64,000 nt of DNA from Nitrospira japonica (GTDB taxonomy: Bacteria > Nitrospirota > Nitrospiria > Nitrospirales > Nitrospiraceae), in assembly GCF_900169565.1 (NCBI RefSeq), contig NZ_LT828648.1, forward strand, positions 2,764,501-2,828,500, in the 5' to 3' direction. Below, one piece after another: positions 37,313-56,913 of this stretch. Position 1 is the first letter of the stretch. Every line of letters starts with the position of its first letter. Both the position numbers and the translations under genes were made by a program. The notes below the pieces were generated by a model. The model was not told where the DNA came from. It did no database searches and worked only from the letters and a program-made list of their open reading frames with translations.

Positions 37313-37323
37313 GGCATGGCTCC

Positions 37324-38319: not shown

Positions 38320-38350
38320 CGATGGCTGACCCTTTGCGCGACCGTTGTCG

Positions 38351-40921: not shown

Positions 40922-41275
40922 TTATTTCGCGTCGGTGGCGGTGGAACTGGAGGGATGGACCGGAAGCCGAGGCCGTCCGCGTTTCAACGGGGCCAGTCGT
41001 TGGGGAAACGGCCCCCCGTTGCTCCGCTCGATCTGCGACACGGAGTCGTCGAGCGCGTCGGCGATGAGCCGGGCCAGGGTGCCGTGACCGGTCCAGTAGA
41101 CCGCATTGCGCAGTCGTTCGAGCAAATCGACAGGAAGCGTGATCGTCACACGCTGCTTGCGACGCCGTCCGGTGGCGGGGCGTCCTGCTAATCCGTTCAG
41201 CCGAAGCGGAGCCCCGTCATCAGACGGCATCGGGGTCGTCTGGGGAAGCATCTGTGGTTGAGCGTGACCGTTCAT
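40922..41275 (-). CDS. Ribbon-helix-helix-like DNA-binding protein
   Basis: A protein of 117 aa. An Arg/Lys-rich linker precedes 'RVTITLPVDLLERLRNAVYW' and 'GHGTLARLIADALDDSVSQI', a beta strand and two helices in the ribbon-helix-helix (CopG/ParD-like) order, then 'GPFPQRLAPLKRGRPRLP'. Such proteins bind DNA as dimers. Its start overlaps the end of the micro-protein gene at 41272 by 4 bp, so both come from the sigma-54 promoter at 41516. It could regulate this locus; that is an inference. Confidence 0.7.
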   Translation of the reverse strand: MNGHAQPQMLPQTTPMPSDDGAPLRLNGLAGRPATGRRRKQRVTITLPVDLLERLRNAVYWTGHGTLARLIADALDDSVSQIERSNGGPFPQRLAPLKRGRPRLPVHPSSSTATDAK

Positions 41276-41451
41276 GCTGCCATCGTCCGGCGTGTAGAAC
41301 CGGTTTCGTCGACGCCGTCTCGATCGGAAGGCGTGTCAGCGGCGGAACTCGCGTGATCGCCTTGGTCATTCCACAGTACCGTGACGGCCATAGCCCAGAT
41401 CAGTCCCACCATTCCGGTCAGTAATACTCCAACGACGAGATCCTGTGTCAT
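41272..41451 (-). CDS. Membrane micro-protein, third member (59 aa)
   Basis: A protein of 59 aa: one transmembrane helix (about residues 5-26) followed by 'LWND' and a polar, acidic tail. The N-terminal 29 residues resemble the 28-aa proteins at 54138 and 55262: all begin M-x(0-2)-D, have a hydrophobic core with 'M-x-x-LI' and end in W-(N/Q)-D. AGAAAGGA precedes the ATG. A sigma-54 promoter (41516) and a tandem enhancer-like motif (41626) lie upstream. An in-frame ATG at 41532 overlaps the promoter and is unlikely to be used. Confidence 0.72.
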   Translation of the reverse strand: MTQDLVVGVLLTGMVGLIWAMAVTVLWNDQGDHASSAADTPSDRDGVDETGSTRRTMAA

Positions 41452-41515
41452 GGCCTGGTCCTTTCTGCAGGCTCGGAGAGCCGGCGGCCTGACAGAGTTG
41501 CTAGTCTGTGTACTC

Positions 41516-41531
41516 AGCAATCCTTGTGCCA
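41516..41531 (-). promoter_or_regulatory. Sigma-54 promoter A
   Basis: TGGCACAAGGATTGCT matches the TGGCAC-N5-TTGCW consensus at every position. It lies 65 bp before the start of the membrane micro-protein at 41451, in the right orientation. Confidence 0.85.
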
Positions 41532-41625
41532 TTCTCTGGCCGCATCCTCAACGCAACTGATATGGAGATTCCGCCTGTTTCTTCGAAGCCAAATCCTGCA
41601 GGTGCGACTGCTTCGTTTTCCTTGT

Positions 41626-41663
41626 GAATCAAAAAGGATTCTCAGCTGAATCAAAATGTATTA
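41626..41663 (-). promoter_or_regulatory. Tandem enhancer-like motif A
   Basis: GAATCAAAAAGGATTC (41626-41641) is followed after 22 bp by GAATCAAAATGTATTA (41648-41663). The motif recurs upstream of promoters B and C. It lies 95 bp beyond promoter A, where sigma-54 activators usually bind. The rest of the 41452-41867 spacer holds a short REP-like palindrome (41696-41715) and no gene. Confidence 0.7.
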
Positions 41664-41867
41664 TCACGAGCAGCACACGACCCCGTAAGGTAGGCATTCC
41701 CGCGGAAGCGGAAATCAAGGCGACGCGTTCTCCTTAGGATTAAGTCCTGATGAGAGATCGATGTCCGCTTCACGGGATCCATGTCGATGGCCTGACGAGC
41801 GGAGGGAATCAGCAGAGGCTCGGAGCGGGACGTCGCCCGAGAACGATCTGATGCGCGAGAAGAACCG

Positions 41868-42662
41868 CTATCGTTGCTGCGTTTGGACCGATCGCAAATC
41901 CCATTCGGCCACGCCGTTGAGTCCCACCTGCTTCAGCAGGCCGGCGCGCAGCCTTCTCAGGGAAGCATCGGTCGGATTGGCGTCGATCAAGGTGCAGAGG
42001 CAGCCCATGGCGTCGTACCAGAAGCCTGCGCGGGCGTTGTCCGTGACCGTTTGCACCGAACAGGTGATCTTCGCGTCGAAGGTAATGAGGCAGTCGCTCA
42101 TTTCGCAACGCTCGATGACACCGCCGCCCACGATATCCTTGGACGGGGAGGAAGGGTCGCGCACGACCGACACGTACCATCGGTATTGAATGTTCGGATC
42201 GAGTGCGAGACCGAGATCCTTGATGGCAATAGAAAAGATGCCCGGTTGTTTCGGAGTTGGAATGGGGGCTTCATAGACCGGTCTCACCGATTGATTGTCG
42301 ATCAGCGTGAATCGCACTTCGTGCGGCGTGGGCTTGGAGAGATACCAGTTGAGGACTGGAGTCTGACTCGACGTGAATCCCACGTGATCGGGTACGAGAG
42401 CCTGGACTTCCGGATCCATGCCTTCCGTGCCGCGCAGTTCTCCGCCGACGCGGGCGCGGGGGGTGAACTTTTTCGGCGGCTGGTAGAGTGGAATCTGGTC
42501 ACGCGAGGTGCCGTTGGCCTGGGTTGTAACCTGTTCAGCAAAACCAGGTGGCATGTCCGAACCGATCACACTGATCGTCGCGAGCATGACACCCATCAGC
42601 ACGGTTCCGGAAGATCTGGCAGCTCGTGTACGGAGAAAAGCATGGGGATGTGTGGCATTCAT
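41868..42662 (-). CDS. DUF928 exported protein (second copy)
   Basis: A protein of 264 aa with a signal peptide. The DUF928 region has 'LYQPPKKFTPRARVGGELRG', 'ALVPDHVGFTSSQTPVLNWY', 'PTPHEVRFTLIDNQSVRPVY' and 'YRWYVSVVRD', ending with 'RRLRAGLLKQVGLNGVAEWD'. It is a close tandem duplicate of the gene at 42742. DUF928 proteins are exported, of unknown function, and typically lie beside CHAT and TpsA/TpsB genes in cyanobacteria. The start at 42662 is preferred; 42695 is also in frame. Confidence 0.88.
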   Translation of the reverse strand: MNATHPHAFLRTRAARSSGTVLMGVMLATISVIGSDMPPGFAEQVTTQANGTSRDQIPLYQPPKKFTPRARVGGELRGTEGMDPEVQALVPDHVGFTSSQTPVLNWYLSKPTPHEVRFTLIDNQSVRPVYEAPIPTPKQPGIFSIAIKDLGLALDPNIQYRWYVSVVRDPSSPSKDIVGGGVIERCEMSDCLITFDAKITCSVQTVTDNARAGFWYDAMGCLCTLIDANPTDASLRRLRAGLLKQVGLNGVAEWDLRSVQTQQR

Positions 42663-42741
42663 GGCGGCAGCCCTCACGTTAGATGTGCGGCTCAAGTTGC
42701 AGAAAACAATCCTCTCGGCATCAACGGTTGACGACGTGACG

Positions 42742-43524
42742 CTATCGGCCGGCTGCCGGGACGGCCCGCAGGTCCCACTCAGCCACGAGATGAAGGCCGA
42801 CTTGGGACAATAGGGATGCGCGGAGCCGCCTCAGCGAGACATTCTCAGGATCCGCATCGATCAAGGCGCAGAGACAGCCCATGGCGTCATACCACATTCC
42901 GGCGCGCGCGTTCTCCGTCACCGACTGAACGGAGCAGGTCATGCGGGCGTCCATGACGATCAAACAATCGCTGAGCTCGCAGCGTTCGATGATGCCGCCG
43001 GTGACGATCTCAGAGAAGGGGGCCGGCTGCACGATGGACACGTACCAACGGTACTGGACGCCGGGCTGCAGGGTCAGATCCAAGTCTCTTGTGCGAATCG
43101 AAAAGATTCCCGCTTCTTTGGGAGCAGGGATCGGTGCCTCGAAGATCGGCTTTACCGATTTGTCGTCGATGAGGGTAAATCGCACTTCATGCGGCGTCGG
43201 CTTGGAGAGATACCAGTTGAGAACGGGCGTCTCCTGGGAGGTGAACCCGACGTGATCCGGCACGAGCGGCTGCACGATCGGCTCGAGACCGTCCGATCCG
43301 CGCACAGTGCCGCCGAGCCTGGCGCGAGGCATGAATTTCTTGGGAGGTATATAGAGGATCCGCGGTTCATTCGATTGACTCGAATCGGCCGACGGCGCCG
43401 AGAACACTGGAACAGCCTGGGCCATCAGGGTGAGGAGGATGAGTCCGATCAGCCCTTGCCTGCCGAGGCCGAATGGACTGGTGACCGTCAGCGAGACTGC
43501 AGAATGACGTGACGCGCAGCGCAT
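42742..43524 (-). CDS. DUF928 exported protein (first copy)
   Basis: A protein of 260 aa with an export signal (about residues 20-43, 'VFSAPS') and the same DUF928 blocks as its neighbour: 'IPPKKFMPRARLGGTVRG', 'PLVPDHVGFTSQETPVLNWY' and 'YRWYVSIVQP'. Two cysteines in 'ERCELSDCLIVMDARMTCSV' are kept in both copies and may form a disulfide. It begins 4 bp from the CHAT gene stop and is surely co-transcribed with it. Confidence 0.9.
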   Translation of the reverse strand: MRCASRHSAVSLTVTSPFGLGRQGLIGLILLTLMAQAVPVFSAPSADSSQSNEPRILYIPPKKFMPRARLGGTVRGSDGLEPIVQPLVPDHVGFTSQETPVLNWYLSKPTPHEVRFTLIDDKSVKPIFEAPIPAPKEAGIFSIRTRDLDLTLQPGVQYRWYVSIVQPAPFSEIVTGGIIERCELSDCLIVMDARMTCSVQSVTENARAGMWYDAMGCLCALIDADPENVSLRRLRASLLSQVGLHLVAEWDLRAVPAAGR

Positions 43525-43528
43525 GATG

Positions 43529-45859
43529 CTAGAGCCAGTTGTTCAGCAGGAGAAAAGGCGACCAGTATGCCGGATGTTGGTAGACGCGGTCACCCAGAAG
43601 TTTGATTTGAGCCCGTTGCATGGCAACGGCCTTCGATACCGACGGATTGCGGAGCTGCCGGTAAAACTCTGAGATCAAGGCCGACGAGGCTTCGTCATTG
43701 ATGAACCAGAGTGTCGCCAACGCGCTGCGCGCACCGGCCTTGATCGCGACGCCGGCCAGACCCAGCGCCGCCCGATCGTCGCCGACGCCGGTCTGACACG
43801 CGCTCAAGGCCAGGAGCTCGAGCGGATCTTCCCTGAACCGGAAAAGCCCGATGAGTTGGTCCAACTTGCTCATGGTCAACTTACCGTCGAAGGTCAGTAA
43901 GAATGAGTCATTTACGTCCGTTGAGAACTTTCCATGCGTCGCGATATGCAGGATGCCATATCGACCTTCACGCAATTCCTGTTCCAGGCGGGGAGCGAGA
44001 AAGTCCTGGTCAAGCAGTTGATCGCCGCCATAGAGGTTATGGATCGAATCGACCTCTTCGGCCACGTAGGGCAAGGCCGGAAATCCTTGTACGCTCTTGG
44101 TGAGGCCGGTTGCAAGGAATCGGACCTTCTCACGGTTCAGCGGTTTCGGGTCCGTCAACGTGATTCCAGGGGTGATCGCGACGGCGAATTTCTGAATCAC
44201 AAATGATTCCCCGTCGTGAAGCGCAGCCATGGGGATCGTCCGGAGGACACCGTCCGGTACCACGACCAGCGTGGTGATGTGTTCCTGCTTCAGTTGCCCT
44301 TCGATCGGCCTGATCAACCAGTCATATAACTGCTTCGCATGGGGGAGGTACTCGCGCGTCGTCCGTTTTTCTACGCGGCGGCGGAAATCACGGACCTCCT
44401 GGGTGACCGTCTCGATTGCGATCGGCACCGCCGTGCGGTAGAAGCCGGACGGCAGTGTGACCAACAGTTCGATCCGTTTGGGAAAGAGGATCGGATAGAT
44501 GACCGCAGTATCCGGCGACAAGCGATCGAAGGTCGTCAGGCGCGACCGGATCGCATCGACGCAGCCGTCTTTGAAGTAGTCCCGCAGTTCGGCCGCCTTG
44601 AAGGCTTCGACGGCATCACGGGCGGCGAGCAAATAGCCTTCGGCAATCTTCTGGTCTTCCGTGCGTGACGCTCGCTGCAAGAGCAAATCGGCGAACTCGA
44701 AGAACAACGGCTTGATCGATTCCTGATTCGACAGGGAAGCCTCGGCCGCCGCCTGGCTCACTTCGAATCGGATCGGTTGCAAGGTGGCCGCTGCCTGCCG
44801 ATAGGCGGCAAGGGATTCGTCGATCTGATCCATCGAAGCCAATAGACGGGCCAACTGCCACTGCCAGCGGTATAGGGATTCCGGTGCATCCACCGACTGC
44901 GCGGCAAAAATGGCTCGCCTGGTCAACAGAAGGGCATCCTCTGTTCTGGCTTCGAGCTCGTACAGGTGTCCCATGTAGCCGAGCGCATAGGAGAGGGTTC
45001 GGGAATCCTTCAATTGTTCGGAGATGCCGATGGCTTCCTGCAGGGCGCCGGCCGACCGGAGGAGCAATGGTTTGCGGATCTCCGGAAGGGCCGGCAAGAG
45101 ACTCTCGTAGACCAATCCGATATTGACGAAGCCCACGGCCTTGTCCCGTGAAACGGGGAGGTCCTTCAGCTGGTCGAGGGCCTCGTCGAGCCATTGTCGG
45201 CTTGCATTCGGGTTGCCGAGCCGCAGGGAAATCCTGGCGGCATTCACCCGGCTGTTCACGGCCAGCATCTGAAGGCCGGCCTCACGGGAGACCGCGACAC
45301 AATCGGTGAAGGCCTCCAGCGCTTCCTTGTCTTCTCGTTTGAGCGCATGGAGCACACCGAGGTCGTTCAGGATGGCGGCGGACACGGCTGCGGATGGTTG
45401 CCGGCGAGCGACTTCCTCGGCCTGGGCAAGGTACTGCGCGGCCGGATCCAGTTGTCTGGCTGTGAGGTAGGCGCGGCCGATTTGATCCAATACCGTGGCA
45501 TGCCAGGCATGGTCGGATCCCTTCTGCGCCAGGGCAAGAGCGAGTTCCAGATATTGAATCGCCTGCGTGCTCTGTCCCAAGGCTTGGGTAGCTTGGGCCG
45601 CGGACACGAGTGCCCGGCTTTCGCCGTCGGTTGAACCTGTCTCGTGATATCGGGAGGCCGCCGCCCGCCAGTTGTTCAAGGCTTCCTCGAACGCGCCGCG
45701 CTGATAGGCTTGCGCGCCTTGCTGCATGAGCGACTCGGCCGTACCCTGCTTCACCGTGTCGGCGAACAGAAGCGGCGGGATCAGAACCAGGCATATGAGT
45801 ACCGCGGACGCGGGCCATCGGAGCGGGCAAAATCTGTGACGGATGGTTTGGACGTTCAC
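43529..45859 (-). CDS. CHAT-domain (caspase-like) protein with TPR repeats, exported
   Basis: A protein of 776 aa if translation starts at the GTG; an ATG at 45976 lies inside a hairpin. A signal or anchor segment ('ASAVLICLVLIPPLLFADT') is followed by TPR-like helices across about residues 40-400 ('AQAYQRGAFEEALNNWRAAA', 'IQYLELALALAQKGSDH'). The C-terminal CHAT domain has the caspase-like dyad His642 ('LHIATHGKFSTD') and Cys688 ('LLALSACQTGVGDD'), then 'WFINDEASSALISEFYRQL' and a final 'HPAYWSPFLLLNNWL'. CHAT proteases cleave partners in several bacterial systems. It sits between tpsB and two DUF928 genes; its substrate is unknown, but TpsA or DUF928 proteins are natural candidates. Confidence 0.92.
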   Translation of the reverse strand: MNVQTIRHRFCPLRWPASAVLICLVLIPPLLFADTVKQGTAESLMQQGAQAYQRGAFEEALNNWRAAASRYHETGSTDGESRALVSAAQATQALGQSTQAIQYLELALALAQKGSDHAWHATVLDQIGRAYLTARQLDPAAQYLAQAEEVARRQPSAAVSAAILNDLGVLHALKREDKEALEAFTDCVAVSREAGLQMLAVNSRVNAARISLRLGNPNASRQWLDEALDQLKDLPVSRDKAVGFVNIGLVYESLLPALPEIRKPLLLRSAGALQEAIGISEQLKDSRTLSYALGYMGHLYELEARTEDALLLTRRAIFAAQSVDAPESLYRWQWQLARLLASMDQIDESLAAYRQAAATLQPIRFEVSQAAAEASLSNQESIKPLFFEFADLLLQRASRTEDQKIAEGYLLAARDAVEAFKAAELRDYFKDGCVDAIRSRLTTFDRLSPDTAVIYPILFPKRIELLVTLPSGFYRTAVPIAIETVTQEVRDFRRRVEKRTTREYLPHAKQLYDWLIRPIEGQLKQEHITTLVVVPDGVLRTIPMAALHDGESFVIQKFAVAITPGITLTDPKPLNREKVRFLATGLTKSVQGFPALPYVAEEVDSIHNLYGGDQLLDQDFLAPRLEQELREGRYGILHIATHGKFSTDVNDSFLLTFDGKLTMSKLDQLIGLFRFREDPLELLALSACQTGVGDDRAALGLAGVAIKAGARSALATLWFINDEASSALISEFYRQLRNPSVSKAVAMQRAQIKLLGDRVYQHPAYWSPFLLLNNWL

Positions 45860-45964
45860 ATCGTTCTCACTATCAAGTGTCGTGCCCAGCGGGGCACTGT
45901 TGGGGGACTGGCGCCCTTCCCATTGGCGGCTGTCCCCCTCATCAATGACTCTTCCCTGTTCGAA

Positions 45965-46002
45965 AGGGAGAGGCACCGCCGCGGACGGCGGAGCCTGTCC
46001 CT
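45965..46002 (-). terminator. Hairpin at the end of tpsB (terminator or attenuator)
   Basis: A stem of 17 positions with two mismatches around a CGGA loop, followed on the - strand by TTTCG. It begins within the tpsB stop codon and precedes the CHAT gene, so it would reduce but perhaps not abolish read-through from tpsB. Confidence 0.55.
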
Positions 46003-47755
46003 AAAATAGATTGATCACCAGACCCATGTGGACCCCATAGTCCTGCAACGTATTGCCCACACGATTCGGCGGATCACGCACGAGTTTGTATCCCCAATAG
46101 ACCTCATAGTTTGCGCGATCGTTGGGAAGGATGCTCCAACGAAGACCGGCGCCGACGCTGGCGAGTGTATTCGGGTTCCCGCCTGCCTCGCTCAAAGACT
46201 TATTCGCGCCCAGACTCCAGCCGTTCCCCACGTCGGCGAATGGCGCGAGCTGTAAGATCGGTTCTCCGCTGATCCGACGCCAGAGAGGAAAACGCGATTC
46301 AAGCGAGGCGATGAAGGCGTTGTCGCGCAGCAGCGTGACCTCGCGATATCCTCGCACGCTGTACCGGCCTCCGACCGACACTTGTTCAAGTGGAAATAGC
46401 GGCGAATTGGTCACCTGCAGATCCATGCGACCGAAAAGTTGCATGCCGAATAAATTTTCGCCGAATTGTTTGATGCCCTGTACCTGACCCAACCAAGAGA
46501 AGAATTCGCCGCTTGGGAGGTTCCCGCCGCCCGGCGTCGTCCCCGAATTGATGGTGGCGCCCAATACATTGAGCCCAACGCTGAATCGGGAACGGCCGGC
46601 CACCACGGTGTCCGTCGAGCGATGAGTCCATTCCTGCGCAAAACGCAGGGCCGACACGGTCGCAGCGCCGTTCTGGAATCCCGGAAAGAGATTGAACGGC
46701 ACATCCGAGAAGATGAAGCTTTGGGTAAACAGATGTTCGCCGATGATCGACAAGACCACTTCATCCGTTATGGTGCGGTACACCGGTTGGCGGAGACTCA
46801 GGCCGATGATTTCCGTGTTGGTCTTGATGTCCAACGGCTTGAATGGCTGCTCGATCAGGGTATAGTCCGTGCGACGGTAGTAGGGCGAAAAGGTCGTATC
46901 ATAGCGATTCAGAGGAATCGCATAAGAGGTATCGATGATCGGAAACGCGCCGGCCGAGCCGCCGAACGTCAGGCTGAATGGATCGCCGTGGCCCGTCACG
47001 TTGTCATAGACCACCGTGCCCAAGCCGCGGAACTCACCGACCAATGGAACTTGATAGTTATTCCCTTCGATGTAGGCATGAAACGGGTTGCGATCCTTGA
47101 CCTTGACATCGAGCTGACTTTCTCCCAGTGCATCGCCAGGCCGCAGTTCTGCGTTAATGCGTTCAATCCGCCTATCCTGCTGAAGGAGTTGTAACTGTTC
47201 CTGCATCCTGTCCATGCTGATGGGAGGACTAGCTCCTTTCTCAATCCGGTTGCGAAGATAGGAATCGGCGAAATATTTGTTGCCGACCACATTGATGCGC
47301 GTCAGCTTGCCTTCGATGATCTGCACGGTGATGATCCCGTCTTTGACATCCTGGTCAGGAATAACCGCACCAGAGGTCTGGTATCCCGAATTGATGTATT
47401 TGGCTGACAGGGTCAGACGCAACCGTTCGAGATCCTCGGTCGTCAGGGTGCGGTTCTCAAATGGCGCCGTCACTTCGTCGAGTTGTGCTTGAGTGAAGAC
47501 CGTGCTACCGACCACTTGGATGTCCTTCACGAACACCCTGATCTGGCCCAGTCGCTGCTCGGCCGGTTCCTCGGGCGGCAGGGGAGGGGGCGGCAAGACG
47601 ACCGACCGCTGGGGTCGAAGATGGGCGGAGCGATCTGCGCCTGCGCGATCGATACGGCCAATAATGATCCCACGAGACTTCCCCATCCGATGTGACGATA
47701 CGAGGACGGAGGTGCTTCCTGCGACACTCCCATCGCTCGTGCCGTCATGATCCAC
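46001..47755 (-). CDS. TpsB (ShlB/FhaC-type) outer-membrane transporter, signal peptide out of frame
   Basis: A protein of about 584 aa. After a proline-rich segment ('LPPPPLPPEEPAEQRLGQIR'), a POTRA_2 domain ('VFVKDIQVVGSTVFTQAQLD', 'GIITVQIIEGKLTRINVVGN') and a 16-stranded ShlB-type barrel follow, ending 'GVHMGLVINLF'. The signature 'GGRYSVRGYREVTLLRDNAF' is present. The first 48 residues in this frame are not a signal peptide. In the frame opening at 47748, however, a signal peptide reads '...SLVGSLLAVSIAQAQIAPPI' and 'FDPSGRSS', exactly what should precede the proline segment. A one-base shift near the C-rich stretch (about 47580-47600) separates them. It would export the TpsA protein at 49203. 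Confidence 0.85.
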   Translation of the reverse strand: MDHDGTSDGSVAGSTSVLVSSHRMGKSRGIIIGRIDRAGADRSAHLRPQRSVVLPPPPLPPEEPAEQRLGQIRVFVKDIQVVGSTVFTQAQLDEVTAPFENRTLTTEDLERLRLTLSAKYINSGYQTSGAVIPDQDVKDGIITVQIIEGKLTRINVVGNKYFADSYLRNRIEKGASPPISMDRMQEQLQLLQQDRRIERINAELRPGDALGESQLDVKVKDRNPFHAYIEGNNYQVPLVGEFRGLGTVVYDNVTGHGDPFSLTFGGSAGAFPIIDTSYAIPLNRYDTTFSPYYRRTDYTLIEQPFKPLDIKTNTEIIGLSLRQPVYRTITDEVVLSIIGEHLFTQSFIFSDVPFNLFPGFQNGAATVSALRFAQEWTHRSTDTVVAGRSRFSVGLNVLGATINSGTTPGGGNLPSGEFFSWLGQVQGIKQFGENLFGMQLFGRMDLQVTNSPLFPLEQVSVGGRYSVRGYREVTLLRDNAFIASLESRFPLWRRISGEPILQLAPFADVGNGWSLGANKSLSEAGGNPNTLASVGAGLRWSILPNDRANYEVYWGYKLVRDPPNRVGNTLQDYGVHMGLVINLF

Positions 47756-48007
47756 GGCCCGCCGGAAGGTCAGGTAAGGACGATAAGGCCGATAATATTC
47801 TGCGTCGTCGCATAGATACCCGCCTGAAATCCGTTCTCCGCCTAGCTAATCTCTTCGTTGAAAGGTCGCAATAACTCCTTGGGCTAGGGTCAAGTGGCTC
47901 TGTCGATGTGGCTCTGCGAACGGCCGCTGTTTCCATCTCTAGCGAGAGAATCTCAAGTGGGTCTTCGCTGGTAGAGCCGAATGTACCGATCAGCGAAATG
48001 AGGAAAA

Positions 48008-48023
48008 TGCAATGGGCAGGCCT
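48008..48023 (-). promoter_or_regulatory. Sigma-54 promoter B (probable)
   Basis: AGGCCTGCCCATTGCA keeps the GG(C) and GC elements with correct spacing and closely resembles promoter C. It lies 260 bp upstream of tpsB. The 47756-48425 spacer holds no gene I can support. Confidence 0.55.
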
Positions 48024-48166
48024 TGGAAGCTGGAATGCTCGTGGCCATTACGTAGCGATTGGAATGTTGCTCAAATGCGGGGAATTATCCTAATTTTGAT
48101 GAGCAAATCCGCGTGTTGAAGATTTGTAGAAGGAAGTTAGAGGGGTAGTAGATGCGTAACTCAGTG

Positions 48167-48203
48167 GAACCCAAAAGCATTCTTGGTGGATCAAAAGAGA
48201 TTC
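48167..48203 (-). promoter_or_regulatory. Tandem enhancer-like motif B
   Basis: GGATCAAAAGAGATTC (48188-48203), preceded 21 bp earlier by the weaker GAACCCAAAAGCATTC. It lies 144 bp beyond promoter B and has the same layout as motifs A and C. Confidence 0.65.
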
Positions 48204-48425
48204 AGGTGGATGGCGTCACCAGGCAATAACCTCTGAGGGTGCCGGGAACTCTTGGACTCAAGACGCACAGTCCGTGAGCCAATCTTCTCCGAGCAGCTGT
48301 GCCAATGTACTGGAGGGGGGAGTCGCGCAGTCAAACGATGAGCGGACTATCTGATTCTGACTTGAGCATGGACAGGCCAGAACTATTTGAAGAATTCGAG
48401 CGCTAGCCTGTCCTCTGCCGTGAGC

Positions 48426-48746
48426 TCATGCGAGCGGAGTTGGCTCCGTTATGAGAGTCACAGGATCGCCATGTGGTCCCTCGACTTCGCAAAGAATTTG
48501 ATAAAAGCAATCCTGTGGCTTGGCAGGAAGCTGATCGTCATACACGCTTGCTATGATTTTCTTCTGGCCCTTGCTAACTGAACTACCCTTCAGTGCTATA
48601 GATGCTTCCCACTTGTGGTTGCCTGCTGGATCAATAGTTCCAAAGCGCACCCATGCCTGCTTAACCTGATCTGCTTGTGCATCGAGACTAATGTTAAATC
48701 CCTCCTGAGTTTGGCCAGTGATCCTGTTATGCTCTCCGCTGGTCAT
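48426..48746 (-). CDS. Small soluble protein, unknown
   Basis: A protein of 106 aa without a signal peptide. It reads as a beta-rich domain ('ISLDAQADQVKQAWVRFGTI', 'EASIALKGSSVSKGQKKIIA', 'GDPVTLITEPTPLA'). No family recognised. GGGAGGTT is well placed before the ATG, and base composition is lower in GC than in the neighbouring core genes. It is the last gene before the tpsB promoter region and lies downstream of tpsA, so it may be an accessory of that system. Confidence 0.65.
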   Translation of the reverse strand: MTSGEHNRITGQTQEGFNISLDAQADQVKQAWVRFGTIDPAGNHKWEASIALKGSSVSKGQKKIIASVYDDQLPAKPQDCFYQILCEVEGPHGDPVTLITEPTPLA

Positions 48747-48824
48747 ATTGAACCTCCCGTGTTCAATGCATTCGTCAGTGAGAATTGGAGAGAAGTGAAA
48801 GCACTACCCCACTGTTGGGCAGTT

Positions 48825-49136
48825 TCACCGTTGAGACCGAAATTTATTGCTATTAGACACAAACGTCCCGCCAGTCGGTGGTTGATACACGATTTGGGTG
48901 TAGTAAAAACCGTTGTTAGCCGGGAGGTTACTTAGCAAGCATGTCCCGATTGGTGTATTGCTCCAGTTCGTTTGTGTAACCAGGCTCCCTCCATTATTTT
49001 GTGCCGTTGTGACTGTGATCTTCCACTGCGCAACCAAGGTTAGAGGATGGTTTGCATGTGCATTAGTGGGGACAAAATAATAGGAGTTACCGTAGGTAGC
49101 CCCATTATTGGGTGGGTCCAAGACAATTGGTGGCAT
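48825..49136 (-). CDS. Small beta-rich protein, unknown
   Basis: A protein of 103 aa with no signal peptide, rich in Asn/Thr/Tyr ('LDPPNNGATYGNSYYFVPTN', 'LTLVAQWKITVTTAQNNGG', 'GFYYTQIVYQPPTGG'). It resembles a fibronectin- or Ig-like strand repeat but is too short to name. AGGAAGGAG precedes the ATG. It lies 66 bp downstream of tpsA on the same strand and upstream of another small unknown protein. Confidence 0.65.
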   Translation of the reverse strand: MPPIVLDPPNNGATYGNSYYFVPTNAHANHPLTLVAQWKITVTTAQNNGGSLVTQTNWSNTPIGTCLLSNLPANNGFYYTQIVYQPPTGGTFVSNSNKFRSQR

Positions 49137-49202
49137 GATTTGTACTCCTTCCTGTGTTTAAGGTTTTGGCCCAGCCATGCAGCAGTCGGCCATACACTAT
49201 GA

Positions 49203-52200
49203 TCAGCAACCTACGAACCAGTCTTCGTCAAAAGTCTGCATTCCCAGAAGCCAGGGACTGGGAAGCCGGCGCAGTGATAGGAAAGACGAGTCATCAGATC
49301 TGGAAGAAAGTCCTGTTTCACCGGCTTCTATGACCGCGCCATTGGCAACCGGCATAGCGACCAGCGGACTCGTCAACCAGCCACCCGGCTCGGTCGGTAG
49401 CGTGTCCCGTCCCGCCACGATGAAACTGCTGACCTCGCCCCGAGCGATTGCGGCACACCGCTGACTCAGGAGGGCGGTGACTTGAATCGGCGCTTTGCCT
49501 AGCGGCTGAATCTTCCCACCAGCCGGAGCGATGGGCTGCTGAATCGTTACTGTACCATCAAGTGCTGGGTTCCCCGATCTTGCGGTAACCTGGCTATTGG
49601 CGTCTGGTAAGAACAGACCACCATTTGTAATCGAGATAAGTACGTTCCCTCCAGGGCCTTGGTCAGCATTCGCTCTAATTTGACTGTTCTGCAGAATGAC
49701 AAACTGTGGATCGATACTTATGCTCCCTCCTCCGCCTGTCCCATCGAGGACCGAGGCACTGATCGTGCTGTTCGAGAGATCTACTCTGCCGCTTGGATTT
49801 GTCGTGATCTTTATTGTGCCTCCGCTAGATTTCGTCGCCTCTGTTGTAAGGAGGCCGTTCGTCATTACGAGTTGACTGCCCGCGTTCAAGTTGATATTGC
49901 CAGCTGCTCCTGAGCCGGTGCTGCTACTCGAAATGTGACCGTTATTTTGAACTGCAACGGATTGAGCTGAGATCGATATATCTCCGCCAGCTCCGCTTCC
50001 TTGGGTCAAAGTGAAGATGCCGCTACCTGCTCCATCGATGAGGACCGATTGTGCCGGACTGGCAAGACCTTGAACTGCAACTATTCCAGCCGCCCCAGTT
50101 GGCGGAAAGTCTGGAAACTCTAGCAGGCTGCCGCTCGTGATGTGGCCTCCGGACAGCAATTGGAAATTGTTTGCATTGACTGTGATGGTGCCAGCTTTCC
50201 CCTCGAGACCCGTTGAGGTTGAAATGCTGCCGCCATTATCGATCACTACGGCGGGAGAAGTGATAACAATGTTTCCTGCATCTCCAAATGAAAACTCTCT
50301 ACTCGCGCTGGTGAGTTGTGTGCCGGAACCGGAGATCGTTAGCGAATCGGTCGCGTTCACAGTGATGTTGCCGGCTGCTCCGGTGCTGCCACGAGACGCG
50401 CTGTTAAGCAGACTGTCGCCACTAAGACTCAAGCGAGCCGCATCGACTAGAATGTTTCCGGCGTTCCCCTGAATAGTGACACCATCCCCGCTTGTCTCAG
50501 TCACGAGTTGACTGTTCTGAGCGAGTGTAACAACGCTCGCGTTGCTCCCTGGACCGGCCAGTCCTCGAATAATGATATTCCCCCCGTGACCTTCGGCCTG
50601 CGTACGAGCGCTGAGAACACTTTCGGTGAGGTCTACGTGACTAGCCCGCAGTTCAATGCTGCCTGCGTGACCGGAACCAGCGGTGTTAGTGCCGATGTTG
50701 GAACCTCCCTGCATTTCGATGAGTGGAGCTATCAGGCTCACCGTCCCTCCTGCTCCATCGACATCGGTGTTACTCGTGATCGATCCGTTATTAAATAGAG
50801 CGATTTGTGAGTCAGCCCTCACCATAATATTCCCGGCGTTGCCAGGACCGGTGGAGGAAGCGTTTATGGTTCCACCCGAGACGAGGTTTACCGTATTCGC
50901 ATTCACTGTGACTGTTCCGCCGGTGGCGGATGGTGTAGTGCCTGATGTCGTTGCCGAGAGTAATCCACCATTCTGAAGTGTGAGCGAGTTTGTAAAGACA
51001 GCTATGTGCCCACCCGCACCCGTGCCTTCAGTGTTGGTGAGAATGCCGCTTCCTTGACCATCAATTAGGATCGACCCAGCTGGGCTTGCCAATCCTCCAA
51101 TGGTTATGGCTCCACCAGATCCGGACGGAGTTTCGAGCGGTGCGTCAGGTGGAGGAAATGGATTGAACCTAGTACTGCTCCTAATCTGAGCTCCGTTCAT
51201 GATCTGGAGATTGTTCGTCGAAATGTTCAGAGTGCCGCCGTCTCCATTTCGAAATGTTTCGGTCGAAACCGTACTTCCGTCTGTGAGTAAAATATCCTGA
51301 GCGTTGATCGTTAGGTCAGCTGATCGTGCGTTTCGACGCGTGGTCGTGAGTAGAGTTGATGGAAATATGTCGGCACCGCTCATCTTGAGTGTGCCTGTCA
51401 GGTTGACAGTCAAGTTTCCAGGTTGAAACGGAGTGAAGTTGTCAATTTGAATGCCGGAGTTCTCGATGGTGAGATTTCGAGCGTTTAGTTGAAGCCCGCC
51501 CGTCCCTGGGTGAAGTCCCGCTCCAAGGCTACTAAATAGAGTGGCTGGTCCTAAATCAGGACTCCCTGTGAGTACGATATTTCCGTTCCTCGCATTGACC
51601 ACTATATTGCCCGCGTCCCCGCTATCGGGAGCTCCACTCAACGACTGGCTTGACGCCGATATGCTAGGACCATTCGTGAGAAGGACGTCGCCTTGAGTGC
51701 TCGTCAATACGATGCTGCCTGCATTCCCAAACGGGGGATTGGAGGTTGTCGTTCCAGCAAAAACCAACGACCCGCTGGATACCTCAAGGTTGCCTGTACT
51801 TGTTAGAAGGATACTGCCTGAATTGCCTATTCCCCCGGTTTCCGCGTCAATAAAACCAAGGTTTGTCACGATGATAGAGTTTGCGTTCACACGGATATCG
51901 CCGCTGTTTCCCCCAGCACTTTCTGGCAATACATTTGACTGAAGGATAGTGGGAACAATATTTCCTGTCTCAAGATCTAATATGCCACCGACTTCCACAT
52001 GATCGGCCATTATAGTAATCCCGCCATATGTGACGCCCGCGCTAGCAGTCCCGGTGACTGAGGTATCAATCATGGCAGCGTTTTTTATGACCACATTCTG
52101 ACTCATAGCGATGTCGACACCGTGTCCGATGGATTCAGTGCCATTTATGGTCGGACCAGGCCCCGTGACATTGGCGAGAATTACGGAATTGTCCAGGACA

Positions 52201-53108
52201 AATTGCCCTCCTCGAATGAGCACCGTACCTCCACCGTAGCCACTCACGTCGAGTGTAGATTGTTCAGACACCTGAATCGCACCGAGAGTAATGAAAGACT
52301 GACCATTGATGTTGGGGGCCTGGGACAATGTCTTCAATAGTAACTCTCCAGGTGAGGTTACACTGGCAAGATTAATCTGCCCTCCGTGCGCGGAGAGGTG
52401 AGCCGGTTGCGTTGTCGTTCCATCTTCCAGGGAACCGGCCTGGATCGTAATGTTTCCTCCGGCCAGAGAGATGCTTTGACCAGGAGCAACAGCTATTTGG
52501 CTTCCCTGAACTGTAATAGCCCCTGGAGTTGAGCCCAGAAATCCAAATGCCGCGACTGGGGCCGCACTCAGAAGCGCATCTGCTGCGGCATTTGGGGACG
52601 AATTGAATAATCTTCCATCGTTGAGACGAAGATAGTCCGCGGATGTGAAAGCTACCATTCCGCCGACGTTCACCGTGGCATTTGGTCCAAACAGGAAACC
52701 TGCTGGGTTGATCAAGAATAGATTGGCATTGCCAAATCCGCCTGATCCGTTTGTCTGAATCGTTCCGAAGATGTTCGAAATGTTTCCGCCGGTCACGCGT
52801 CCTAGAATATTGGTCGTGGGGAGGGCTGACTCGTTGAGGAAGTTGGCGATGTTGTTGTTCGGCACGCTGAAGTTGCCGAAACTGTGAAATAGATTCGTCC
52901 CTCCGCCTGGACGAGTGCCACCGGTGATGTTGTAAGCATTTCCATTCGGTGTGATGACTGTGTTCAAACCGGAAGAAGTGATAGGGGCTTGGCCATAAGA
53001 ATTAGATGGGGCGAAATTCAGACAGAGAACACAAACTCCCAGAGCACATGCGAAGCGTGCTTCCGACCAGTTATGGATCCCTTGCAGGAATAGATGGAGG
53101 TTTCTCAT
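49203..53108 (-). CDS. TpsA: haemagglutinin-like two-partner-secretion exoprotein
   Basis: A protein of 1301 aa with an extended signal region (about residues 1-41). The TPS domain includes 'GNFSVPNNNIANFLNESALP', 'ILGRVTGGNISNIFGTIQ' and the export motif 'NPAGFLFG' (residues 134-141). Beyond it are long beta-helix repeats of the form 'GNAGNI-V-A', 'GSGAAGNINLNAGSQLVM' and 'GGGTVLIRGGQFVLDNS', ending in 'QVTALLSQRCAAIARGEVSS' and 'GRDTLPTEPGGWLTSP', the tail seen in cyanobacterial haemagglutinin-type proteins. Its TpsB partner is at 46001. It is expected to be a surface filament or adhesin. The ATG at 53108 begins the signal; 53126 is also possible. Confidence 0.92.
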   Translation of the reverse strand: MRNLHLFLQGIHNWSEARFACALGVCVLCLNFAPSNSYGQAPITSSGLNTVITPNGNAYNITGGTRPGGGTNLFHSFGNFSVPNNNIANFLNESALPTTNILGRVTGGNISNIFGTIQTNGSGGFGNANLFLINPAGFLFGPNATVNVGGMVAFTSADYLRLNDGRLFNSSPNAAADALLSAAPVAAFGFLGSTPGAITVQGSQIAVAPGQSISLAGGNITIQAGSLEDGTTTQPAHLSAHGGQINLASVTSPGELLLKTLSQAPNINGQSFITLGAIQVSEQSTLDVSGYGGGTVLIRGGQFVLDNSVILANVTGPGPTINGTESIGHGVDIAMSQNVVIKNAAMIDTSVTGTASAGVTYGGITIMADHVEVGGILDLETGNIVPTILQSNVLPESAGGNSGDIRVNANSIIVTNLGFIDAETGGIGNSGSILLTSTGNLEVSSGSLVFAGTTTSNPPFGNAGSIVLTSTQGDVLLTNGPSISASSQSLSGAPDSGDAGNIVVNARNGNIVLTGSPDLGPATLFSSLGAGLHPGTGGLQLNARNLTIENSGIQIDNFTPFQPGNLTVNLTGTLKMSGADIFPSTLLTTTRRNARSADLTINAQDILLTDGSTVSTETFRNGDGGTLNISTNNLQIMNGAQIRSSTRFNPFPPPDAPLETPSGSGGAITIGGLASPAGSILIDGQGSGILTNTEGTGAGGHIAVFTNSLTLQNGGLLSATTSGTTPSATGGTVTVNANTVNLVSGGTINASSTGPGNAGNIMVRADSQIALFNNGSITSNTDVDGAGGTVSLIAPLIEMQGGSNIGTNTAGSGHAGSIELRASHVDLTESVLSARTQAEGHGGNIIIRGLAGPGSNASVVTLAQNSQLVTETSGDGVTIQGNAGNILVDAARLSLSGDSLLNSASRGSTGAAGNITVNATDSLTISGSGTQLTSASREFSFGDAGNIVITSPAVVIDNGGSISTSTGLEGKAGTITVNANNFQLLSGGHITSGSLLEFPDFPPTGAAGIVAVQGLASPAQSVLIDGAGSGIFTLTQGSGAGGDISISAQSVAVQNNGHISSSSTGSGAAGNINLNAGSQLVMTNGLLTTEATKSSGGTIKITTNPSGRVDLSNSTISASVLDGTGGGGSISIDPQFVILQNSQIRANADQGPGGNVLISITNGGLFLPDANSQVTARSGNPALDGTVTIQQPIAPAGGKIQPLGKAPIQVTALLSQRCAAIARGEVSSFIVAGRDTLPTEPGGWLTSPLVAMPVANGAVIEAGETGLSSRSDDSSFLSLRRLPSPWLLGMQTFDEDWFVGC

Positions 53109-53151
53109 GACACTACTCTTCACCATCAGGTCAGAGCCAAGGTTGAAGCGT

Positions 53152-53556
53152 CTACTGTGCGCTACCAGAGAAGGATGGGGCCATCACCATCGCATCATGT
53201 AATGTCTGAGAAGCGCGATCTGTCACATTAACCAAGAACGGCTCACGGTTCTCAAGCAGCTGTGACCAATGAGTTTCTTGCTGGCATCGCTGCTCAAGCA
53301 CGAGCTTTCGCCATCTTTCCGTCGTAATGTGGCTCACGTCGAGATTGGAACCAGACTCTCGCACTTGTCTCATGTTAAGCGTATCGGGTAACGAACAATA
53401 TGGGCAGCCTAGAGTCGTACCTCTGCACGTACAAAGTAGGGGTTTGCACGTTCCGCACATGCAACAACCTGCTATCGCTGGAGTTCCTGTCATAAAGAGG
53501 ACACCACCAGCGAACACAATCAGAATTATCGAAAAGTGAACAATGAAGTTTCGCAT
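53152..53556 (-). CDS. Exported Cys-rich small protein
   Basis: A protein of 134 aa with a signal peptide (about residues 1-29, 'TPAIAG'). A dense cysteine cluster follows immediately: 'CCMCGTCKPLLCTCRG' and then 'CPYC', eight cysteines in about 24 residues. The rest is helical and polar. The cluster could bind metal or form knotted disulfides; no family recognised. It lies 43 bp upstream of tpsA on the same strand and so is likely co-expressed with it. Confidence 0.72.
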   Translation of the reverse strand: MRNFIVHFSIILIVFAGGVLFMTGTPAIAGCCMCGTCKPLLCTCRGTTLGCPYCSLPDTLNMRQVRESGSNLDVSHITTERWRKLVLEQRCQQETHWSQLLENREPFLVNVTDRASQTLHDAMVMAPSFSGSAQ

Positions 53557-53602
53557 CCCGAACCTCCATGGCGATGTTCAATTGGATGCCATGAGCATCC
53601 CA

Positions 53603-53995
53603 TTATTTAGCTTCGTTCAATTTGTCTACTGCCAGTTTGCATTCTTGAGTCCTGCATAGTTTTAAGACTGGATCTCCTGGTGAAGCGATGAACATATAGC
53701 TGGAGCCTGGAACTAGATCTGTGAAAGTGGCTTGGTCTACTTCGAAAATATGGTGGTTAAATCGATAGTCCTTTAAATCATAGAAATTGAACAGACTTTT
53801 GGAGTCCTCTTCGATTACCGCCTTTGCTACCACACCGATGACTTGATTTCCTGCTTCCTTCTTATTAGCGACGGTTTCATAGTAGTAACAAGTTTCCCTT
53901 GTCGCTATTCCACCAGGATCAGGACAAACCGGTGGTGCACTGCAGGCACTTAACACTAACGATGTAATGACGAGCGAAGACCATCTCCATTTCAT
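53603..53995 (-). CDS. Small lipoprotein, unknown
   Basis: A protein of 130 aa with lipobox L-S-A-C at Cys18 and a mature part with further cysteines ('VCPDPGGIATRETCYYYET', 'LKLCRTQECKLAVDKL'). No known family. AAGGAGGGCAG precedes the ATG. It precedes the Cys-rich protein and tpsA in the same direction and lies downstream of the micro-protein at 54138. Confidence 0.72.
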   Translation of the reverse strand: MKWRWSSLVITSLVLSACSAPPVCPDPGGIATRETCYYYETVANKKEAGNQVIGVVAKAVIEEDSKSLFNFYDLKDYRFNHHIFEVDQATFTDLVPGSSYMFIASPGDPVLKLCRTQECKLAVDKLNEAK

Positions 53996-54137
53996 GACTG
54001 CCCTCCTTGAGCAACAGATGGGATGAGGCTACTCGGTGCTTCTTGTCAGATATGCGATGTTTCCATCGACATCTTGCTATTCCTTCTATTGCAGGAATCT
54101 CAATAACCCTTTCGTCTAGGGTCGATGGCCTCTCTAG

Positions 54138-54224
54138 CTAATCCTGCCAGATGATCCCGACGACGATATAGATCAGTCCTGCCATCAGCGCATTGGCCAG
54201 GAAGAAGATCATGCTGATATCCAT
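54138..54224 (-). CDS. 28-aa membrane micro-protein (copy 1)
   Basis: A 28-residue reading frame: MDISMIFF, then a hydrophobic core with 'NALMAGLIYIVV', ending I-I-W-Q-D and TAG. It is a single transmembrane helix with an acidic residue at each end. GGAGG lies 5 bp before the ATG. The protein at 55262 has the same length, and 15 of 28 positions are identical (including L-M-A-x-L-I-Y-I-V and W-Q-D). This similarity is strong evidence that both are real. A sigma-54 promoter lies 45 bp upstream. Function unknown. Confidence 0.75.
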   Translation of the reverse strand: MDISMIFFLANALMAGLIYIVVGIIWQD

Positions 54225-54269
54225 GGGAACCTCCGCTGCCGATTCGTTGCGCTGCTGCGATGGCGAAAT

Positions 54270-54285
54270 TGCAATGAGTAGGCCA
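54270..54285 (-). promoter_or_regulatory. Sigma-54 promoter C (probable)
   Basis: TGGCCTACTCATTGCA has the GG and GC elements 10 bp apart, with one mismatch to TGGCAC/T-N5-TTGCW. It lies 45 bp upstream of the micro-protein at 54224. Confidence 0.65.
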
Positions 54286-54409
54286 CTAGAGAACCTTGCT
54301 CAAAGCGAGAGTGTGAAACGTGGCTATTTGCTAATGCGAACAAGGAAATCCGCATTCTTCCCGCAGACAAAAATAGAGATGGGTGGATCTACTGTGATCA
54401 GGTCCTATG

Positions 54410-54446
54410 GGACCTAAAAGAATTCGTGCTGGATCAAAAGTGATTC
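54410..54446 (-). promoter_or_regulatory. Tandem enhancer-like motif C
   Basis: GGATCAAAAGTGATTC (54431-54446), preceded 21 bp earlier by the weaker GGACCTAAAAGAATTC. It lies 125 bp beyond promoter C. Apart from the promoter and this motif, the 54225-54567 spacer holds nothing I recognise. Confidence 0.68.
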
Positions 54447-54567
54447 AGAGGCGAGTCAGTCTGGAGCCTGATAGCCATATGCCTGAAGAGCCATAGCTCC
54501 TACCAGTAAGACATCTACCGAATCGCCTGTTTGGGCGGCGTACGTTTTCAGGAGACCGATAATGTAA

Positions 54568-54909
54568 TCAACGGTTAGGGCAGACAAAGGAGAGAGCCTC
54601 GGCGAATGCCCGATAGTCGCAGAAGTCGATAGGACCAGTATCTGAGGGGAGCGGTGTTCTGTGTAGGAGATATGTAATTAAGCGACGGTATTGCGTGTAC
54701 CAACGACAGGCAGTTGTATAGGCTGCTTCGACTGCCGGATCGGACTTCCAAGGTGAGAGATCGAGTTGATCATTGACGAGGATCTCCAGCCACAGGATCC
54801 GTCGTCTGCGTTCGGTTTTAATGGCTTCACCAATAGAATTTATGCCGAGATAGGCTGGCAATAAGCGAAGGGGTCTTCCGATAGGAGTAAATCGAGCCTC
54901 GTCACGCAT
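54568..54909 (-). CDS. Hypothetical protein (uncertain)
   Basis: A possible protein of 113 aa ('LLPAYLGINSIGEAIKTERR', 'ILWLEILVNDQLDLSPWKSD', 'ACRWYTQYRRLITYLLH'). Hydrophobic and charged residues alternate plausibly for helices, but there is no convincing ribosome site and no recognised family. It could be a decayed gene. It sits between the two micro-protein transcription units. Confidence 0.35.
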   Translation of the reverse strand: MRDEARFTPIGRPLRLLPAYLGINSIGEAIKTERRRRILWLEILVNDQLDLSPWKSDPAVEAAYTTACRWYTQYRRLITYLLHRTPLPSDTGPIDFCDYRAFAEALSFVCPNR

Positions 54910-55261
54910 GGCGTGAGTGTATCTCAGAGGCGAACTTACCGGAAAGAATGGTAGAGGGGAGGGGCGCGGATGGAAGGGGACAATGGCCTACTCAGAAGGG
55001 CGGTCGTCCTCAAAAGGAAGGCCGCGCTGCCAGTGATGGTGGAAGCGCGGCCTTTGTAGCGCAGAGGCGACCAGCTGACTCTGGAAGGGTCAGGACCAGA
55101 GCCTGCATGGGCGTCGATTGTCGCTTGGCAGTCGAACGTCCGATGGTCGGCTCTGCGCCGGTTGGACTCTCATCATCACGATAGGGGTTCGGGTATCCTC
55201 CTGCCATTCGATGGATCAGCTTTGTGACAAGACTCGTTCCACGCCATGCCTTCGCCCTTCG
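54910..55261. other. Gene-free spacer
   Basis: About 350 bp. Short open frames exist on both strands, but none has a ribosome site or natural composition. No RNA gene or clear promoter was seen. Confidence 0.55.
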
Positions 55262-55348
55262 CTAGTCCTGCCAGATCTTCGTGATCACGATGTAGATGAG
55301 GACGGCCATCAATGTATTGCTGAGGATGAGGATCACTGCGAAGTCCAT
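55262..55348 (-). CDS. 28-aa membrane micro-protein (copy 2)
   Basis: A 28-residue reading frame beginning MDFAVILI, with core 'NTLMAVLIYIVI', ending K-I-W-Q-D and TAG. It is the partner of the copy at 54138: same length, same ends, same helix. AAAGGA lies about 10 bp before the ATG. A sigma-54 promoter with a full consensus match lies 51 bp upstream. Protein function unknown; such helices often act as regulators or stabilisers of larger membrane complexes. Confidence 0.78.
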   Translation of the reverse strand: MDFAVILILSNTLMAVLIYIVITKIWQD

Positions 55349-55399
55349 GATGCGTTTCCTTTCGTCCTAGGTGTACGCGTGACCCTTGCCATCGGGAAA

Positions 55400-55415
55400 A
55401 GCAATTGACATGCCA
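55400..55415 (-). promoter_or_regulatory. Sigma-54 promoter D
   Basis: TGGCATGTCAATTGCT fits TGGCA(C/T)-N5-TTGCW fully and lies 51 bp before the micro-protein start at 55348. A degenerate version of the tandem motif (GAATCCCTTTGGTTTC, 55537-55552) lies 121 bp further upstream. The rest of the 55349-55787 spacer holds only the REP-like palindrome. Confidence 0.82.
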
Positions 55416-55691
55416 TTGGCTTCCTATCTTGGGCAGAAACGAGCTGATGAATGTGATCCCCGCACCTGCAGCGCACATTCGAAATCGGCATGGTATTTGA
55501 CCATCTGCCTCGTTGCCCTGAAGGACAACAAGCGCTGAATCCCTTTGGTTTCAGCAACGCATCGGAAGCAATTCAGCGGATGGAAATGAGTGATTCTGCC
55601 TACAAACTGTTCAGGATCTCATCTGGCGAATGTGCGCATCAAACAATACGGCGATAACCGAGTCGTCTGCGGAAAGAAGACCTCGCCTGGA

Positions 55692-56376: not shown

Positions 56377-56913
56377 ATGCACTGTGTGTTGTTTCGCCAC
56401 GGCATTGCGGTCGATCGTGAGGATTGGGAAGGGGCGGAAGAGGATCGTCCGCTGACGGACCGTGGGGCGAAGCGGGTGGCTCAGGTGTCGGAAGGGCTCA
56501 AGTGGCTGGAGCTGCAGCCGACCCATGTATTCTCCAGCCCGCTGCTGCGGGCCATCGAAACGGCGAAGATTCTCCAGGAAGCTCATCGGGTCCGGTCTGT
56601 CGTCCAGATCGTCGACGAGTTGCTTCCGGACGCGTCTCCCGACCGTCTGCTCACCCGGTTGTCCGAGCTGCCGCCTGAATCCTGCGTGTTCTGTGTGGGC
56701 CATGAGCCCCATCTTGGTCTGGCGGCGTCGCTGATGCTGGCCGGCAAACCCGCGATGGGATTCCCGTTCAAAAAGGCCGGCGCCTGTCTTATCGAGATTG
56801 CGATGCCGCTCAAGCCAGGCCGGGGCCTCCTGCACTGGTGGATGGGGCCGAGTCAGCTGCGCGCACTAGGCAGAAAGAAGTTGAAAAGCGAAAAGCTGCC
56901 GCTCAAGGCTTAG
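56377..56913 (+). CDS. sixA: SixA-type phosphohistidine phosphatase
   Basis: A protein of 178 aa of the histidine-phosphatase superfamily. The catalytic motif R-H-G is at residues 7-9 ('LFRHGIAVDRED'), followed by 'PLTDRGAKRVAQVSEGLKWL', 'FSSPLLRAIETAKIL' and the second catalytic histidine in 'VFCVGHEPHLGLAASLM'. SixA enzymes remove phosphate from phosphohistidines of HPt domains or PTS proteins. AAGGAGAG precedes the ATG. Its last 4 bp overlap the end of the convergent thymidylate-kinase-like gene. Confidence 0.88.
   Translation: MHCVLFRHGIAVDREDWEGAEEDRPLTDRGAKRVAQVSEGLKWLELQPTHVFSSPLLRAIETAKILQEAHRVRSVVQIVDELLPDASPDRLLTRLSELPPESCVFCVGHEPHLGLAASLMLAGKPAMGFPFKKAGACLIEIAMPLKPGRGLLHWWMGPSQLRALGRKKLKSEKLPLKA

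Follow-up and report, generated by a model that had tools for sequence, protein, structure and literature searches.

A conserved two-partner-secretion locus of Nitrospira japonica as a probable dedicated sigma-54 exoprotein regulon

Nitrospira are dominant nitrite oxidisers and, to our knowledge, little is known about their control of surface proteins and of biofilm. The locus considered here lies in a 64,000-nt window of Nitrospira japonica (genome searched, 4.08 Mb, labelled G000). Its genes, all on the minus strand, encode a two-partner secretion (TPS) pair (TpsA and TpsB), a TPR-CHAT protein, DUF928 proteins, membrane micro-proteins, a kinase and a sigma-54 activator, and from its sequence it is quite probably a self-contained regulon dedicated to exoproteins. 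Several described systems offer points of comparison. LuxP/LuxQ and TorT/TorS are kinases coupled to periplasmic binding proteins; likewise, the Nitrospira locus has a substrate-binding protein (SBP) gene beside that of a membrane kinase, with no transporter genes adjoining, and the SBP–kinase partnership is putative. Unlike in those systems, the output here is an adjacent sigma-54 activator.

A kinase and an NtrC-type activator linked to genes for the cell exterior are known from the PrsK/PrsR–PEP-CTERM regulon of Proteobacteria (Haft 2006, PMC1569441), for which dependence on RpoN was shown (PMC9850573). The Nitrospira locus shares this linkage. In both, a conserved motif and, downstream of it, a −24/−12 site precede individual exoprotein genes, and motif and activator have a common phylogenetic profile. 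The differences are equally definite. The locus activator scores 393.3 bits against a PrsR cut-off of 502.6 (TIGR02915), and no PEP-CTERM match was obtained in TpsA, the lipoprotein, the Cys-rich protein or the small open reading frames (ORFs) of the locus with Pfam, or in TpsA with NCBIfam. The Nitrospira targets are TPS exoproteins, CHAT, DUF928 and micro-proteins; the dyad differs; and an SBP and a PAS receiver are added. Because the activator falls below the cut-off and the targets are different, the sequences indicate a regulon that works like PrsK/PrsR–PEP-CTERM without belonging to it.

Anchored two-partner secretion is known from HMW1 and HxuA, whose TpsA is locked into its pore through a disulfide close to the C-terminus (review PMC5422565). 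The Nitrospira locus likewise pairs a TPS exoprotein with a POTRA/barrel TpsB, and its TpsA has two Cys near the C-terminus. It differs in a Cys spacing of about 85 residues with a conserved segment, in the linkage to CHAT and DUF928, and in sigma-54 control. Sigma-54 was described as a controller of the bacterial exterior by Francke 2011 (PMC3162934), where adhesins and hemagglutinins are not mentioned; the activator gene beside genes for surface or exported molecules fits this theme. In the open-access literature, no description was found of Nitrospira with TPS, sigma-54, CHAT or DUF928.

Between 55.4 and 40.9 kb, the gene order is two 28-residue micro-proteins (mic1 and mic2), a lipoprotein, a Cys-rich exported protein, TpsA, two small ORFs, TpsB, TPR-CHAT, two DUF928 proteins, a 59-residue micro-protein (mic3) and a ribbon-helix-helix (RHH)-like protein. 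This minus-strand order had been proposed in a sequence-only reading of the window and was borne out by ORF calls and domain matches. The listed genes stood; the limit placed at 40.9 kb did not, because kinase and activator genes, overlooked in that reading, adjoin the RHH gene downstream on the same strand (40.7–33.5 kb) and extend the block to 33.5 kb. The four −24/−12 sites that had been proposed in or ahead of the block (P1–P4) are present, and 110–181 bp upstream of each lies a dyad of the type GAATC-N6-GATTC, referred to as an upstream activating sequence (UAS).

55536..55553, strand unassigned: UAS1, degenerate dyad TGAATCCCTTTGGTTTCA, 138 bp upstream of P1; rank 4 of 127,964 with the relatives' matrix
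55400..55415, minus strand: P1, −24/−12 site TGGCATGTCAATTGCT, ahead of mic1
54430..54447, minus strand: UAS2, TGAATCACTTTTGATCCA, 162 bp upstream of P2; a second, degenerate dyad follows; matrix rank 3
54270..54285, minus strand: P2, −24/−12 site TGGCCTACTCATTGCA, ahead of mic2
48187..48204, minus strand: UAS3, TGAATCTCTTTTGATCCA, 181 bp upstream of P3; matrix rank 2; same arrangement in G005, the closest relative
48008..48023, minus strand: P3, weak −24/−12 site AGGCCTGCCCATTGCA, ahead of tpsB-CHAT-DUF928
41625..41642, minus strand: UAS4, AGAATCCTTTTTGATTCA, 111 bp upstream of P4, with an extra half-dyad 22 bp upstream; matrix rank 1; conserved in other genera
41516..41531, minus strand: P4, consensus −24/−12 site TGGCACAAGGATTGCT, ahead of mic3

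A plain scan of the window alone for the sigma-54 consensus gave 21 matches against 26.7 expected from shuffles, which is no excess, so the upstream motif and conservation have to carry the case for the promoters. In its exact form, TTTTGATYCA-N4-8-AATNC, the tandem motif is present at three positions of the genome, all of them in the block (upstream of P2–P4), and its reversed control was not found at all. A UAS matrix was built from 33 unique sites of relatives, with the window and the closest relative left out; it ranked the window sites before P4, P3, P2 and P1 first to fourth among the 127,964 positions of the window. The tandem motif had been read as a property of three promoters; that count holds for its exact form, while the matrix ranks place a UAS at all four. 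A P5-like site at 40844 (AAGCACAAGAATTGCT) was dropped, as the matrix scan found no UAS for it, and a fourth genome-wide dyad (3,373,848), which has no sigma-54 site, was treated as chance.

The comparative sample comprised 175 genomes of the family Nitrospiraceae, 97 of which contain DUF928, and 68 fetched loci of about 20 kb each around these genes. Random gene order in relatives had been named beforehand as an argument against the proposal; the order is non-random, with TpsB-CHAT-DUF928 contiguous in 55 of the 68 loci. In 33 of these 55, the SBP, kinase and activator genes also lie inside the 20-kb stretch; in many of the remaining loci the stretch stops before the activator position, or there is no activator (genus g14). 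The order that recurs across the family is TpsA-TpsB-CHAT-DUF928-(RR-PAS)-SBP-kinase-activator, where RR-PAS denotes a response-regulator receiver with PAS domains. In a second arrangement, DUF928 is divergent from CHAT-TpsB-TpsA and the regulatory genes are missing; at least one such locus has a dyad and a sigma-54 site near DUF928.

The promoter elements are conserved along with the genes. Sigma-54 sites above 11.5 bits in the 68 loci number 223 in the sense and 52 in the antisense direction; for sites accompanied by a suitably spaced UAS, the numbers are 94 and 1. Across genera, most loci have a sigma-54 site ahead of mic3 or, if they lack mic3, RHH and RR-PAS, ahead of the SBP gene, and in relatives TGAATC-N6-GATTCA, often with overlapping half-sites, lies about 110–150 bp upstream of this site. 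The stringent dyad pattern was found in 85 of the 175 genomes (one match for the reversed-pattern control). It co-occurs with an orthologue of the activator (E below about 1e-170), being present in 64 of 71 genomes with the activator vs 21 of 104 without it (Fisher p 4e-21, a value that overstates independence owing to the kinship of the genomes). Comparative genomics thus strongly supports the joint sigma-54 control that had been suggested, and the adjoining kinase and activator, together with the conserved order, make the case. The regulatory genes are the following.

38351..40735, minus strand: response-regulator receiver with multiple PAS domains (RR-PAS)
37324..38430, minus strand: SBP (PF04392) with an N-terminal transmembrane (TM) segment; start uncertain
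34979..37327, minus strand: histidine kinase with two TM segments and HAMP, GAF, HisKA and HATPase domains
33489..34922, minus strand: NtrC-type sigma-54 activator of 477 residues (Pfam Response_reg, Sigma54_activat, HTH_8)

The activator has all the parts of the NtrC type, namely a receiver, a sigma-54-interacting AAA+ domain with GAFTGA and a Fis-type helix-turn-helix (HTH), and the HTH stretch LGLQRTY-L/F-TKL is near-identical among the syntenic activators. For the RR-PAS protein, the domain search gave no output domain. Genomes of genus g15 (e.g., G055:C3:48260 and G056:C9:476177) contain a second activator paralogue with about 57% identity, approximately 11–19 kb from the locus activator and on the opposite strand.

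The genes upstream of the regulatory part, with the evidence for each, are listed below. A thymidylate-kinase-like gene pair flanks the locus at 56910–58359, as it also does in several genomes of genus g17.

55262..55348, minus strand: mic1, single-TM micro-protein of 28 residues, MDFAVILILSNTLMAVLIYIVITKIWQD
54568..54909, minus strand: ORF of 113 residues that matches no family and may be a remnant; G003 and G005 have homologous stretches close to the locus
54138..54224, minus strand: mic2, 28-residue paralogue of mic1, MDISMIFFLANALMAGLIYIVVGIIWQD
53603..53995, minus strand: lipoprotein of 130 residues, lipobox LSAC; similar short lipoprotein ahead of TpsA in G002
53152..53556, minus strand: Cys-rich exported protein of 134 residues; similar protein at the equivalent position in G002
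49203..53126, minus strand: TpsA, TPS-domain exoprotein (PF05860, E 2e-40) with a C-terminal Cys pair, ending in GC
48825..49136, minus strand: sm1, small ORF 3' of tpsA
48426..48746, minus strand: sm2, small ORF 3' of tpsA
46001..47755, minus strand: TpsB, from domain matches
43529..45859, minus strand: TPR-CHAT protease-like protein (PF12770, E 3e-56); a GTG start at 45859 yields a signal peptide
42742..43524, minus strand: DUF928 protein a, with signal peptide
41868..42662, minus strand: DUF928 protein b, with signal peptide, predicted Ig-like domain and C-terminal helices
41272..41451, minus strand: mic3, single-TM micro-protein of 59 residues, beginning MTQDLVVGVLLTGMVGLIWAM and overlapping the start of the RHH gene
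40922..41275, minus strand: RHH-like protein; RHH_5 match weak, below cut-off; syntenic in relatives

TpsA and TpsB have the domains of two-partner secretion (type Vb), with a TPS domain in the former and POTRA_2 and a ShlB barrel in the latter. Among the 69 full-length TpsA ORFs listed, nearly all have a C-terminal Cys pair, spaced by about 70–120 residues and with the last Cys at −2 or −3 in most; a segment SSF.VAGRD.LP.EPGGW is also conserved. By analogy with HMW1, the pair could be an anchor that locks TpsA in the TpsB pore. TpsA was also considered as a polymorphic toxin, a reading that was rejected, as no toxin domain was found and the C-terminus is conserved, not variable. Besides this pair, the genome encodes a single further TpsA and a single further POTRA_2 protein with the length of a TpsB, both near 1.25 Mb; this second TPS locus (G000:C1:1246830-1249295) has an open frame of 4163 residues and its own POTRA_2 protein.

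The CHAT protein combines its domain with a His/Cys dyad (HIATHG and LSACQT, 47 residues apart) that is intact in nearly all loci. Apparent signal peptides, judged by eye and hydropathy, begin both the CHAT and the DUF928 proteins, which therefore look exported. Neither had a match among PDB sequences. The predicted structure of DUF928 (pLDDT 79.5) comprises an Ig-like domain plus helices, and a fold search returned a moderate match to the C-terminal domain of MtxA and many Ig-like domains; these matches are read only as a predicted Ig-like periplasmic domain with helices. An anti-phage defence system was considered and rejected, as defence-protein models gave only a generic TPR match.

The micro-proteins had been taken as paralogous, which is correct for the two 28-residue copies; the 59-residue mic3 belongs to a different family. 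The 28-residue family has the consensus MDFGVxLxxANxLMAxFIYIVVxxIWQD, with A15 and W26 invariant, and its ratio of nonsynonymous to synonymous polymorphism (pN/pS, 0.41) indicates purifying selection. Within Nitrospiraceae, 34 copies were found in 20 genomes; of 396 genomes drawn across the phylum, 16 contain it, and all 16 are Nitrospiraceae. A sigma-54 score above 10 lies 53–124 bp upstream of 23 of the 24 copies with upstream DNA read, and a UAS 138–170 bp beyond the sigma-54 site (154–162 bp in 20 of the 24). Against the background 99th percentiles of 9.8 (sigma-54) and 16.1 (UAS), the sigma-54 signal is clear in all but one copy and the UAS in most, not all. More generally, a small TM ORF follows 50 of the 94 UAS–sigma-54 units, compared with 33 of 1440 random points, and these ORFs represent several families, including the 28-residue one, mic3-like MTQEL, MMSDEMAMLTISG and others. 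A hairpin resembling a terminator was seen by eye after mic1, near 55.03–55.06 kb (it is absent from the list of the hairpin scan), so mic1 may form a separate unit.

Other cargo is found behind the same type of promoter in relatives. In G002 (L149, 1644-9397, minus strand), an animal-type haem peroxidase, a cytochrome-like protein and a GMC oxidoreductase stand behind UAS–sigma-54 promoters ahead of TpsA; in G005 a subtilase lies behind a promoter of this type. In G003 (L158, 9229-17156), a UAS-type dyad, with a weak nearest sigma-54 score, precedes a TonB receptor, two small proteins ending CCSCA and CCSCV, ThiF, YcaO, a nitroreductase and a Dyp-type peroxidase, likely a cluster for a ribosomally synthesised and post-translationally modified peptide beside the same regulatory genes. 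These regulatory genes are present in G003, which had no DUF928 match and, in the 50 kb read, no TpsA, TpsB or CHAT match. A speculative idea, and on present evidence an unlikely one, is that the regulon of one activator characteristically opens with genes for single-TM micro-proteins, not all from the same family, which share an inner-membrane task (kinase feedback or deployment of exported cargo), with strains swapping the cargo behind a cassette of promoter plus micro-protein.

From these features of the sequence we infer the following course. A periplasmic ligand, bound by the SBP or sensed directly, would activate the kinase, which would phosphorylate the NtrC-type activator. The activator would bind the dyads, loop to the sigma-54 polymerase and fire four units together: mic1; mic2-lipoprotein-Cys protein-TpsA; TpsB-CHAT-DUF928; and mic3-RHH with the regulatory genes, which implies autoregulation. 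TpsA would pass the outer membrane via TpsB and stay tethered through its C-terminal Cys pair, and the exported TPR-CHAT and DUF928 proteins might act in the periplasm on its folding, retention or release. The single-TM micro-proteins would be expressed in step and most likely reside in the inner membrane as kinase feedback partners or assembly aids.

Several observations weigh against such a dedicated regulon. The −24 element of P3 is poor (AGGC), the P1 dyad is degenerate, and some loci, among them some of g15, lack a micro-protein. In 21 genomes a dyad is present but an activator orthologue of close similarity is not, and many of the distal dyads in g15 lack a sigma-54 site and were not counted as targets; part of the genome-wide dyad count thus reflects something else. 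These g15 dyads, e.g., GAATCTTTTTCGATTCA, lie far from the locus (for example in L161, L167, L170 and L171). A conserved secretion cluster with ordinary promoters, whose sigma-54 sites and dyads are inherited or serve another, unlinked activator, could be imagined in a genome that encodes more than 20 other sigma-54 activators. Genus g14 would suit this explanation in that it keeps strong sigma-54 sites with no activator in the stretches read. Its dyads are almost absent too, and another conserved element, GATCCGATACA, stands ahead of its sites (L083-L093 and joined loci of this genus); the joint absence of activator and dyad counts in favour of the dedicated regulon. The explanation by ordinary promoters is nevertheless very improbable, given the strong co-occurrence of dyad and activator, the concentration of dyads in this locus and sigma-70-like sites that are fewer here than expected from shuffles.

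A caveat peculiar to this strain concerns tpsB. At 47590–47605, between the signal peptide and POTRA, tpsB lacks 67 bp that are present in G005, where short direct repeats border the stretch. Here signal peptide and barrel are in different reading frames, whereas they share one in G005; tpsB thus appears to be frameshifted by a deletion, and TpsA export here may depend on the second TpsB or be lost, a further point against the regulon as proposed. It is rather unlikely that the locus is decaying, with a tpsB pseudogene and a regulon that drives non-functional secretion, because all other locus genes are open, the promoters keep their motif and an assembly error at tpsB is possible. Processing of TpsA or DUF928 by CHAT is plausible, because the dyad is intact, the protein is apparently exported and the genes share the same loci. 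That CHAT is proteolytically active and cuts back or sets free TpsA (or DUF928) on the cell surface, as a regulated shedding system, is less likely than not: the fixed dyad spacing in nearly all copies, the signal peptide, the constant gene linkage and the conserved anchor region of TpsA speak for it, but CHAT-TPR proteins can also be scaffolds. Such shedding would add to the regulon described here and would not replace it. Finally, the micro-proteins could be translated leader ORFs that set the expression of downstream exoprotein genes, and not working proteins, as their promoter-proximal position, often ahead of exoprotein genes, might suggest. The purifying selection and invariant residues of the 28-residue family, the perhaps separate mic1 unit and the several unrelated small TM families in the same position make this improbable.

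A dedicated sigma-54 regulon of this kind would offer a regulator, a binding site and a list of targets that can be tested and are conserved throughout a family. DUF928 and the TPR-CHAT protein gain a defined cellular context, and a membrane micro-protein family is found to be tied to one promoter architecture.

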